A DNA stretch of 64,000 nt from Oribacterium parvum ACB1. GTDB lineage: Bacteria; Bacillota; Clostridia; Lachnospirales; Lachnospiraceae. This document shows positions 33,290 through 36,392 of the stretch, piece after piece. How positions within the stretch are numbered: the stretch's first letter is position 1; every line of letters begins with the position of its first letter. The stretch lies in NCBI RefSeq assembly GCF_000238055.2, contig NZ_KE148312.1, positions 937,201 through 1,001,200 on the forward strand, given 5' to 3'. The notes under the pieces are model-generated. The model ran no database searches, was not told where the DNA came from, and saw nothing but the letters and a program-made list of their open reading frames with translations. The translations under genes and the position numbers were made by a program.

Positions 33290-34123
33290 CTATCTTTTAT
33301 CTGCGGGCTTTCTCGTTACCTGAAAAAGCTGCGGGCGTAAATGGACTTCTCCCAGCACCACACCCTCTCTCTGTCTAAGAATTGTTTCCACGGCAGATGC
33401 CACATCGGAGGGAAGGAGATAGCTCGCTCTGTTTTCTCCTATCGTAAAATCCGCATTGCGGTATAAATCGGTATCCGTCATATCCGGTAAAATGCTGTGC
33501 ACCTTTAGTCCCGACTTTCTATTTTCTGCAAAAAGACTCCTTGCAAAGGAAAGAAGCCCCGCCTTTGTTGCTCCGTAAACTGCCCCGTAGCTGTTTTCAT
33601 GAAGGGCGGTCACAGAAGATATAAAGAAGATATGCCCTCTTTTTTCCTTGATGTCTCTAAGAAAAAATTGGCTAAGGAACAGAGGTGTTTCCAAATTCAC
33701 TTTCATCATCTCCGAAATCTTCTCCTGATTCAAGCTTTCATGAAAGCCGTAGTAGGCTACTCCTGCGGAGTGAATAAGAAGCTCCGGCTTCTTCTCCTGA
33801 AACGAACGACAAAAATCCCGTACCGCCTGATTATCCCGTAAGTCGAGTTTTACGGGAATAAAAGGAAGCTCCATCTTGTTAGATGGCCCGTCCTCCGGCT
33901 TGTTGTTTGCTTGCTTCTCATCTTGCTCATCAAATAGCTTAGAGGCTTGCTCTTTAGATAATTGGGTTTCCTGCTCTTCCGATAGCTTTTCAAAATCTCT
34001 GCCTATCCCATAGACCTGATAGCCCATTTCACAGAGTTTTTCCGAAATAGCATAGCCTATCCCGCCGGAAGCTCCCGTCACTAAAGCAACTCGATTCTCC
34101 ACGCTTTCTTTTTTCTCTGTCAT
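33290..34123 (-). CDS. short-chain dehydrogenase/reductase
   Basis: 277-residue NAD(P)-dependent oxidoreductase. The cofactor motif is TGASGGIGYA (about 16-25), the active site is Ser (FISSVTAL) with YGATKAGLLSFA. An unusual hydrophilic insertion, rich in Glu, Gln and Lys (about 47-82), splits the fold after the second beta strand. The substrate is unknown. It is third in the probable operon with ppk1 and the nucleosidase-SPL fusion gene, 46 bp downstream. After its stop, the minus strand has AAATTGCAATTTTTTTC, a weak terminator. Confidence 0.9.
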   Translation of the reverse strand: MTEKKESVENRVALVTGASGGIGYAISEKLCEMGYQVYGIGRDFEKLSEEQETQLSKEQASKLFDEQDEKQANNKPEDGPSNKMELPFIPVKLDLRDNQAVRDFCRSFQEKKPELLIHSAGVAYYGFHESLNQEKISEMMKVNLETPLFLSQFFLRDIKEKRGHIFFISSVTALHENSYGAVYGATKAGLLSFARSLFAENRKSGLKVHSILPDMTDTDLYRNADFTIGENRASYLLPSDVASAVETILRQREGVVLGEVHLRPQLFQVTRKPADKR

Positions 34124-34169: not shown

Positions 34170-36392
34170 TTATTGCTCTTGTTCGTGATTTACTTCAACA
34201 TCTTCGCTCCATCTGAATATTTTCTCTCTCGGCATGTTTTCTTCCAGCTTATGAAGGAGAAATCCTTCTATCTCTTCCTTTATTTTTTCCGGATAATGAT
34301 AATACCCTCCCGTATTTTCATAAGGAAATACAGTATACGGAGATTGAGGAAAGGCTTTCAGCATAGGCTTAAGGTAGGTCTCTGAAATGCGGAAGCTCCC
34401 CACGCTGCAATCGTAGAGCTTGGCCATCGGAATTTCTCGGAAAACAGTATCCAAAAACACGTTATAAAGTTCCTTCCACTTCTCATGGTAAATCATCGGA
34501 TCAAAGCAGAGTCGAATAGAATATCCTTCCTCTATCAACAATTTTGCAGCCCTTAGACGACTTTCAAGACTTGCGGAACTGTGCTCCGCTCTCTGTACTA
34601 TTTCCTCCGGAGAGACTGTAAAAGCAAAGATGAGTCTTTTCCTTGCCTCGGCAGAAAGCTGTGCTCTCTTGATTTTCCGAAATAAGGCTTCTCCACCCGC
34701 CTTGGTCCGCACTTCAATGCGAAGTTTCTCCTCTCCTTCCAAAAAACGGGAGAACTTTTCTACATAGGGGAAAATCTCCTCTAAGGCCAACAAGTCCGTA
34801 TCATAGGAAATGCAAAGATATAAGCTTCCCTTTTCTCGAATCCACTTTCTGCAATCCTGAAAATAATCTTCTATATTCAGAAAAAGGACCAGATTTGCGG
34901 AAGGGTACATTCCCTGTAAATAACAATATTCGCAGTGGAATGGGCAGTTCATAATCAAAGAACTGTAGCAAAACTGTGTCTCACTAAAACTTTGACAAAC
35001 CGGCGCACCGGGATAGATTCTCTGCCCTTCTTTTGTTGCCAATATAAGCTTTTTGCTCCGCTCCTGCATAAATCGACTTTGTTTTTTTCTGTTAAAGAGA
35101 TCCTTATAATGCCGGATGAGAATGATTTTAGCCTTGGGGAATTTCTTCAGTATTGTCTCTACATCCGCATGTCCCCATATTTCCCTTTCTACATAAATAT
35201 GAGAAAAATGCGGGTGGAAAGGAAGAGGATCCTCCTCTTTCGATATAGCATATGGAATTTTTCTTTCCTCTCCTCCTCTATCTTCCACTTCTTTTTTCGT
35301 CTCCAATAAGCAAGGAAAGTCCTCTTCGGTAGTGGAGGAGAAATGGAGTAAATCGTCTTCCAGCTCCTGCAAAATCTTCTGTCCCCCTCGCTTATCCCGA
35401 ACAGGAAGAAAGCCTTCCTGTCTTTTCTTCTGAAAATACTTGTTCCAAGAAAAATGAATGCTCTTTCCATAGTGAAGCAATTTTTCCAGTTTCTTTTCCA
35501 AGACAAAGGAGAGGCGAAGTTCTTGAGAAAGAAGCTGCACTTCAGACAAAAACGCCTCCTCTTTCTGTCTTTCTTTCTCTTTTTTCAGACTGATTTCATC
35601 CAAAATCCGGATAAAAGAAAGAACTTGTTCCTCTTCCCGTTTCAGAAGTTTCCGAAATTCTTCTTTCACTTTGTTTATTTGCTTCTGTGACTGCTCTTTC
35701 TCGCTTTCTTCCGCTGTATTCCCTGCAAAATTCAGCCCAAAATCCGTTCCACAGCGAAGAATGAACATATCTTCCGTAGAAAGAAAGCTATATCCGCTTT
35801 GGAAAACCGCAGTCGATTCCATATCATAAAGAAAAATTTCTTCCGGATAGGGTATTTCTTTAGAGAATTTTATAGAACTTCCTTTTGTTCTCTTCTTTGA
35901 AGCATTTGCCGGAGAAGCCTTTAATTCCCCTCTGTCAGGCAAGTAAGGCAGACCTCTCCCTAATATCTCCGCATCCTTCCAAGAAAGCCTTTGGTCTCCG
36001 GTGATAAGTCTTGCCTCCGGAAAGGAAAAGGCGTAAAGCATATCCGGGTAGAACTGTCGTCCCGTTGCCCATTCCTGAAGGGCATGAATCAAGAACCAGC
36101 TTCCTAAACAGCTTCCCTCGGCGGTATGTGGTGCTTTCAGGATTGCAGCACTGCCCAAGGATAAGAGAATATCCCCTCTCTTTGCTCCCTCCTTTGCCAA
36201 GGTCGCGGAAACTGCTGCCGCTGCATTGTTTCGCCCTTCTCCGCAGATAGTCAGCAATATCCTTCCTTCGGATTCGCTAAATTCACTCGTACAATACTGC
36301 AAAAAGGGAAACGAAGTTTTTCGTTTCCCCATCTTCAATGCTTGAATTATATTTTCTACTTCTCCGTAGTGTGCTGCAAAAATAAATAGCAT
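34170..36392 (-). CDS. fusion protein: nucleoside phosphorylase/nucleosidase-like domain + spore photoproduct lyase-like radical SAM domain
   Basis: 740 residues. Residues 1-225 resemble MTAN/PNP-superfamily enzymes: AAHYGEVENI with Glu11, a GEGRNNAAAAVSATL glycine loop, DMESTA with Glu192 and GTD with Asp217 match the usual acidic catalytic positions. Residues 225-395 are charged and helical, probably coiled coil. Residues 396-735 resemble spore photoproduct lyase: a radical-SAM CX3CX2C cluster (Cys483, 487, 490 in NCPFHCEYCYLQ) and Cys527 in YLCISYDTD, which may match the H-donor Cys of SPL. It starts 6 bp after ppk1. I infer that the first domain may remove 5'-deoxyadenosine, a radical-SAM by-product. 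No sporulation gene is in view. Confidence 0.85.
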   Translation of the reverse strand: MLFIFAAHYGEVENIIQALKMGKRKTSFPFLQYCTSEFSESEGRILLTICGEGRNNAAAAVSATLAKEGAKRGDILLSLGSAAILKAPHTAEGSCLGSWFLIHALQEWATGRQFYPDMLYAFSFPEARLITGDQRLSWKDAEILGRGLPYLPDRGELKASPANASKKRTKGSSIKFSKEIPYPEEIFLYDMESTAVFQSGYSFLSTEDMFILRCGTDFGLNFAGNTAEESEKEQSQKQINKVKEEFRKLLKREEEQVLSFIRILDEISLKKEKERQKEEAFLSEVQLLSQELRLSFVLEKKLEKLLHYGKSIHFSWNKYFQKKRQEGFLPVRDKRGGQKILQELEDDLLHFSSTTEEDFPCLLETKKEVEDRGGEERKIPYAISKEEDPLPFHPHFSHIYVEREIWGHADVETILKKFPKAKIILIRHYKDLFNRKKQSRFMQERSKKLILATKEGQRIYPGAPVCQSFSETQFCYSSLIMNCPFHCEYCYLQGMYPSANLVLFLNIEDYFQDCRKWIREKGSLYLCISYDTDLLALEEIFPYVEKFSRFLEGEEKLRIEVRTKAGGEALFRKIKRAQLSAEARKRLIFAFTVSPEEIVQRAEHSSASLESRLRAAKLLIEEGYSIRLCFDPMIYHEKWKELYNVFLDTVFREIPMAKLYDCSVGSFRISETYLKPMLKAFPQSPYTVFPYENTGGYYHYPEKIKEEIEGFLLHKLEENMPREKIFRWSEDVEVNHEQEQ

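Follow-up and report, generated by a model that had tools for sequence, protein, structure and literature searches.

A nucleosidase-like domain joined to a spore photoproduct lyase-like radical SAM enzyme in Oribacterium parvum belongs to a conserved two-gene module

An intact fused gene at the locus

The window analysed here, a 64,000-nucleotide stretch of the Oribacterium parvum ACB1 genome, carries on its minus strand a single gene whose product joins an MTAN-type nucleosidase domain and a helical domain (together termed N) to a radical SAM domain of the spore photoproduct lyase (SPL) type (termed S) (Table 1). The sequence-only reading had described one continuous 740-codon frame, and the minus-strand frame indeed runs uninterrupted from 36392 to 34170 for 740 amino acids, while the plus strand read from 34170 contains many stops; the residue numbers given in that reading (Glu11, Glu192 in DMESTA, Asp217 in GTD, Cys483/487/490 and Cys527) were all correct. 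In addition to Glu11, Glu192 and Asp217, residues 1-225 carry a conserved Tyr115-Pro116-Asp117 motif. The bounds of the linker are taken from relatives in which the halves are separate genes, whose N genes stop near residue 349 and whose S genes start near residue 393. N, an MTAN-like domain with a helical tail of ~120 residues, is mostly 240-320 aa long, and the S gene alone encodes ~340 aa in split loci. PPK1 lies upstream of the fusion, and Rfam and tRNA scans of the 64-kb window returned no matches.

Table 1. Coordinates of the fused gene, its parts and the adjoining SDR gene within the window
Feature	Position	Strand	Basis
Whole N-S fusion gene, 740 codons plus stop	34170..36392	minus	Single open frame; full-length matches in other fused genomes
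MTAN-type nucleosidase domain, residues 1-225	35718..36392	minus	Profile, Foldseek, conserved catalytic residues
Helical domain (C-terminal domain of N), residues 226-349	35346..35717	minus	Helices in the model, conservation
Linker between the two ancestral genes, residues 350-392	35217..35345	minus	Low confidence, pLDDT mostly <60
SPL-type radical SAM domain (S), residues 393-740	34170..35216	minus	PF20903, PDB profile, Foldseek
Radical SAM motif Cys483-x3-Cys487-x2-Cys490	34923..34946	minus	Invariant in 120 S sequences
Tyr530, in the column of the Bacillus/Geobacillus SPL H-donor Cys (Gt Cys140, Bs Cys141)	34803..34805	minus	120/120
Cys466, candidate H-atom donor	34995..34997	minus	120/120; aligned with the clostridial SPL donor Cys
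Downstream SDR gene, 277 aa, third cassette gene in Lachnospiraceae	33290..34123	minus	adh_short, 3.1e-33

An AlphaFold2 model of the 740-aa fusion, built from a 61-row alignment, reached a pLDDT of 88.1 and a pTM of 0.89. When this model was compared with the PDB using Foldseek, the SPL structure 4fhc ranked first (E 2.2e-17, TM 0.80 by target length), followed by many MTANs (E ~1e-8, TM ~0.6-0.67 by target length). Profile matches and predicted fold thus agree with the domain identities first assigned, a phosphorylase-superfamily N half and an SPL-type S half; residues 1-225 do match that superfamily, and no frameshift was found. Further genomes, Oribacterium sinus DSM 17245 among them, carry the same fusion, which is therefore not an assembly error; because their linkers differ, a sequencing artefact that removed a frameshift or stop is ruled out as well. 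The fusion of an MTAN-like and an SPL-like half in a single protein is real. The longest fused relative (L071:1077-3785, plus strand; 903 aa) has repeated Asn-rich inserts (e.g. NLTQNESNNPNYNGT) within its MTAN domain.

Active-site residues of the two halves

When the fusion was searched by itself, the sole match of its N half was to futalosine hydrolase at E=0.16, below detection. A profile of the N family (40 relatives) matched solved MTAN structures in the PDB at 3.5e-10, PNP_UDP_1 was matched by 31 of the 40 family members, and the named best matches of N include futalosine hydrolase as well as MTAN. The MTAN equivalog TIGR01704 (cut-off 73.8 bits) gave no match to the window protein at E up to 1 and was not reached by any N relative tested, the best scoring 25.1 bits; an ordinary MTAN encoded elsewhere in the window's genome scores 168.9 bits against the same model.

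Alignment to PDB sequences, on which the assignment of residues to columns rests, places Glu11, Glu192 and Asp217 opposite Glu12, Glu174 and Asp197 of E. coli MTAN. The E. coli MTAN mutants Glu12Gln and Asp197Asn are among the structures listed by Foldseek, and Glu174 is a catalytic residue of that enzyme. The three residues are kept in 93, 92 and 89, respectively, of the 95 N sequences that have the domain, and the trio is complete in 89 of these, as it is in the window protein, so that the intact MTAN catalytic set first noticed there holds up. That the trio is kept among relatives only 20-44% identical to the window protein argues for an active nucleosidase, and we predict that the N half is catalytically active.

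S persists without the MTAN catalytic part in at least seven loci. Some of these (L015/L078, L018, L094, L102) have an incomplete MTAN active site and retain the Tyr-Pro-Asp motif and the helical domain; in others (L079, L081, L090) only the helical domain is left of N, fused to S. No part of N is retained with S more consistently than the helical domain, in which Ser295, Gly337 and their neighbours are conserved, and for this reason we infer a role for this domain in docking N to S. Each of the four genomes tested among those without the MTAN part (G020, G033, G064, G265) has an ordinary MTAN elsewhere, which could substitute for the missing part.

The S half matches the Pfam SPL family (PF20903, E=7.9e-17, 61.6 bits against a gathering cut-off of 27) and SPL in the PDB (2.1e-11, or 3e-20 with a profile of the S family). 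Among credible PDB matches the S profile gives SPL alone, and kinship with queuine lyase, a radical SAM/nucleosidase salvage system, was rejected on that basis. The window protein stays below the cut-offs of the SPL equivalog TIGR04070 (76.1 bits against 400) and of TIGR03886, lyase_spl_fam (47.5 bits against 437.55). On its own profile the S family scores 376-555 bits and true SPL-like proteins score 61-93 bits; S forms a separate clade, and three genomes (G080, G120, G239) contain S and true SPL together.

The CX3CX2C radical SAM motif is intact, as had been read from the window alone: Cys483, Cys487, Tyr489 and Cys490 are each found in 120 of 120 S sequences, and Tyr489, within the motif, and Tyr491, directly after it, match the tyrosine pair of SPL. 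The hydrogen-donor cysteine of the Bacillus type (Bs Cys141/Gt Cys140) is absent; alignment to 4fhc, 4fhg (C140S) and 4fhe (C140A) puts Tyr530 in its column, a tyrosine in all 120 S sequences. Cys527, which the sequence-only reading had suggested as a possible hydrogen donor, lies three residues upstream of this column and is serine in 16 of the 120 relatives, and we abandon it. Cys466 aligns with Cys74 of C. acetobutylicum SPL (hhalign, L-INS-i) with low local confidence and a shift of ~2 residues in one mode, and Cys74 is the hydrogen donor of that enzyme (PMC5368176). Cys466 is accordingly put forward, with the same low local confidence, as a better donor candidate than Cys527. With Tyr489 and Tyr491 kept and Cys466 as a possible donor, S could still share the mechanism of SPL while being a different enzyme.

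Neither SASP nor Spo0A was found in the window's genome (99.9% complete), which extends to the whole genome the earlier remark that no spore gene was in view and rules out spore DNA repair in this organism. SASP is likewise missing from 13 of 34 S-carrying genomes, and is present in all 12 SPL-only genomes tested. Judged by its sequence and distribution, the S half is not the spore enzyme. A second SPL-like subgroup of the same order, with a GSNSDL motif (L146:419-1411 and L149:397-1389, both minus strand; L152; L153), has cysteine at neither known hydrogen-donor position and is therefore probably not spore photoproduct lyase either.

Distribution and neighbours of the pair

In a set of 61 genomes made up of 60 relatives and the window's own, 33 gave a match, and the strong matches were mostly pairs of neighbouring genes. 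From a scan of 84,980 species genomes 80 loci were kept, mostly from Lachnospiraceae, the others coming from Thermobrachium, Caloramator, Thermotalea and Fusobacterium. Of these 80 named loci, 57 have N and S side by side and 11 have them fused. The two genes usually overlap, S starting before N ends, and with mechanically chosen start codons the commonest overlap is 29 bases. Within the order, 245 genomes were compared: 32 carry S (376-555 bits) and 26 carry N (at least 129 bits). Each of the 26 N-bearing genomes has S as well, and N occurs in none of the 213 genomes without S (Fisher p ~1e-29, a value that overstates the association because related genomes are not independent, although the pattern is exclusive). 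Two genomes (G053, G228) have both N and S, though on different contigs. N-S is a conserved two-gene module in anaerobic Firmicutes and some Fusobacteria, with more than 100 loci among thermophilic anaerobes and those of the gut, rumen and mouth.

When the fused or split state is mapped onto a tree of 96 SPL-type domains, 10 changes are needed, at least six of them forced by well-supported branches. Each change may be a gain or a loss, and the simplest reading is that fusion occurred several times independently. The window and O. sinus proteins are sisters with one fusion in common. N and S existed as separate genes before they were fused. Since N and S are adjacent across many anaerobes and have been fused several times, they very probably form one uncharacterised machine; co-occurrence and repeated fusion thus support the functional coupling of the halves proposed from the single protein.

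The SDR gene is present in 64 of 80 loci. Its Ser170, Tyr183 and Lys187 (the Ser-Tyr-x3-Lys set) are invariant in 62 sequences, in which Thr16, Gly17, Gly21 and Gly23 of the TGxxxGIG cofactor motif are invariant or nearly so. Elsewhere in the phylum, in distant families, SDR is mostly missing beside N-S, and N-S is therefore the core of the cassette; an obligatory three-gene pathway that includes SDR is correspondingly weakened. Neighbours other than SDR vary among loci. Among the loci examined, those with PPK1 next to N-S come from just four genomes, all of them Oribacterium, so that the polyphosphate kinase operon originally offered as context is incidental and a role in polyphosphate metabolism is ruled out.

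Three further observations concern individual loci. Between window positions 34170 and 38459, PPK1 is 81% identical to its O. sinus counterpart and the adjoining N-S fusion 53%, from which the fusion evolves much faster than PPK1. In Fusobacterium mortiferum a 218-aa ORF (L109:5305-5961, plus strand), by eye suppressor-of-fused (SUFU)-like, lies between N and S. In Oribacterium sp. oral taxon 078 a 693-codon frame runs antisense to N-S (L004:1591-3672, plus strand, and the same region of L033); it is most likely a by-product of high G+C and not a gene.

Proposed function, alternatives and known systems

5'-Deoxyadenosine, a product of radical SAM enzymes, also inhibits them, and salvage enzymes must remove it; one enzyme able to cleave it is MTAN (PMC8102628). 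We propose, with a probability of about 0.42, that the protein is a bifunctional fusion in which N cleaves an adenine nucleoside arising from the chemistry of S, most likely 5'-deoxyadenosine, and in which the substrate of S is not spore photoproduct. The S half would generate a 5'-deoxyadenosyl radical from SAM and act on its own substrate; the N half would hydrolyse the glycosidic bond of the resulting nucleoside, most likely the by-product 5'-deoxyadenosine, relieving the radical enzyme of inhibition and pulling the reaction forward. The helical domain would hold nucleosidase and radical enzyme together and, in Lachnospiraceae, SDR would probably act on the product. We infer both substrates, the docking role and the SDR step.

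This clearing role is suggested by the conserved MTAN active site, by the exclusive association of N with S, by repeated fusion and by the ordinary MTAN that could substitute in each of the four genomes tested among those that have lost the MTAN part. A "self-clearing" radical SAM enzyme is therefore plausible. Three points weigh against it. The loss of the MTAN catalytic part in at least seven loci that keep S is one; another is that a genome already equipped with an ordinary MTAN has no obvious need of a dedicated nucleosidase. The third concerns the radical itself: in true SPL two tyrosines serve to convert 5'-deoxyadenosine back to SAM (PMC5368176), and because Tyr489 and Tyr491 are kept, 5'-deoxyadenosine may not be released by S. 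If S regenerates SAM as SPL does, clearing would hardly be needed, and the substrate of N would be some other nucleoside. More broadly, we put somewhat short of an even chance on the module being a radical SAM system new to the literature: an SPL-type enzyme working as a unit with a nucleosidase dedicated to it, often within a single chain, to remove or channel the adenine nucleoside that the radical step produces, on a substrate unrelated to spores.

The main rival, which we consider unlikely on present evidence, is a sequential pathway in which S makes a specific adenosylated product, N removes its adenine and SDR acts next. Precedents exist, as MqnB follows MqnE and HpnG follows HpnH, in each case a nucleosidase after a radical SAM enzyme. 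A divergent nucleosidase paired exclusively with one radical SAM enzyme, an SDR with intact catalytic residues in most loci and the presence of futalosine hydrolase beside MTAN among the named matches of N would all fit such a pathway. However, S and SDR remain together in loci without the MTAN catalytic part (the L015/L078 region, L018, L079, L081), which argues against a pathway-specific step; SDR is missing beside N-S in distant lineages; and we know of no SPL-family member that adenosylates its substrate. Considerably less probable is that N serves mainly as a scaffold or sensor, its MTAN fold binding a nucleoside or SAM-derived ligand and its helical domain positioning or regulating S, with hydrolysis secondary or lost. 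The loci that keep the Tyr-Pro-Asp motif and helical domain without a complete active site, and those that keep the helical domain alone fused to S, are what this predicts, yet all three catalytic residues in 89 of 95 domain-bearing sequences are hard to explain without catalysis. Least probable is a vegetative-cell SPL that repairs DNA or nucleotide photoproducts, for which PF20903 membership, the tyrosine pair and the possible clostridial-type donor Cys466 speak, but which sits poorly with a separate clade that coexists with true SPL, a TIGR04070 score of 76 bits against 400, and a genome without SASP or Spo0A when spore photoproduct forms in spores.

Two known enzyme superfamilies stand here in a conserved and apparently undescribed partnership. 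No published description of the N-S fusion or pair was found in the literature searched, which covered subscription journals only in part. Neither N nor S exceeds the cut-off of any curated equivalog; S is caught only by the broad SPL family, and for many N relatives the broad PNP_UDP_1 family is the sole match. The curated names available, "spore photoproduct lyase" and "nucleosidase", fit loosely, and the former is misleading in spore-less hosts. A nucleosidase attached to, or invariably encoded beside, one radical SAM enzyme would make a direct test of local by-product clearing possible; alternatively, the N-S pair would reveal a new adenosylation pathway.

Several known systems resemble the module in part. 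MqnE/MqnB and HpnH/HpnG likewise combine a radical SAM enzyme with a nucleosidase of the MTAN/phosphorylase superfamily in one pathway, but they belong to other radical SAM families, their substrates are known and, to our knowledge, neither pair is fused. TIGR03886 (lyase_spl_fam) is, like S, another SPL-type radical SAM branch beside true SPL; we know of no nucleosidase partner for it. With MTAN (MtnN; PF01048) N has in common the fold and the Glu/Glu/Asp catalytic set, whereas it falls far under MTAN equivalog cut-offs, has an additional helical domain, is never found without S and coexists with an ordinary MTAN in the window's genome. With SPL (SplB; PF20903, TIGR04070; 4fhc) S has in common the fold, the CX3CX2C motif, the two radical-path tyrosines, the invariant Lys564, Arg612 and Arg668 and possibly a donor cysteine of the clostridial type (Cys466). 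Unlike SPL, to which it is only ~17-22% identical, S forms its own clade, has tyrosine at the Bacillus-type donor position, occurs in hosts without SASP or Spo0A, and is paired or fused with a nucleosidase.
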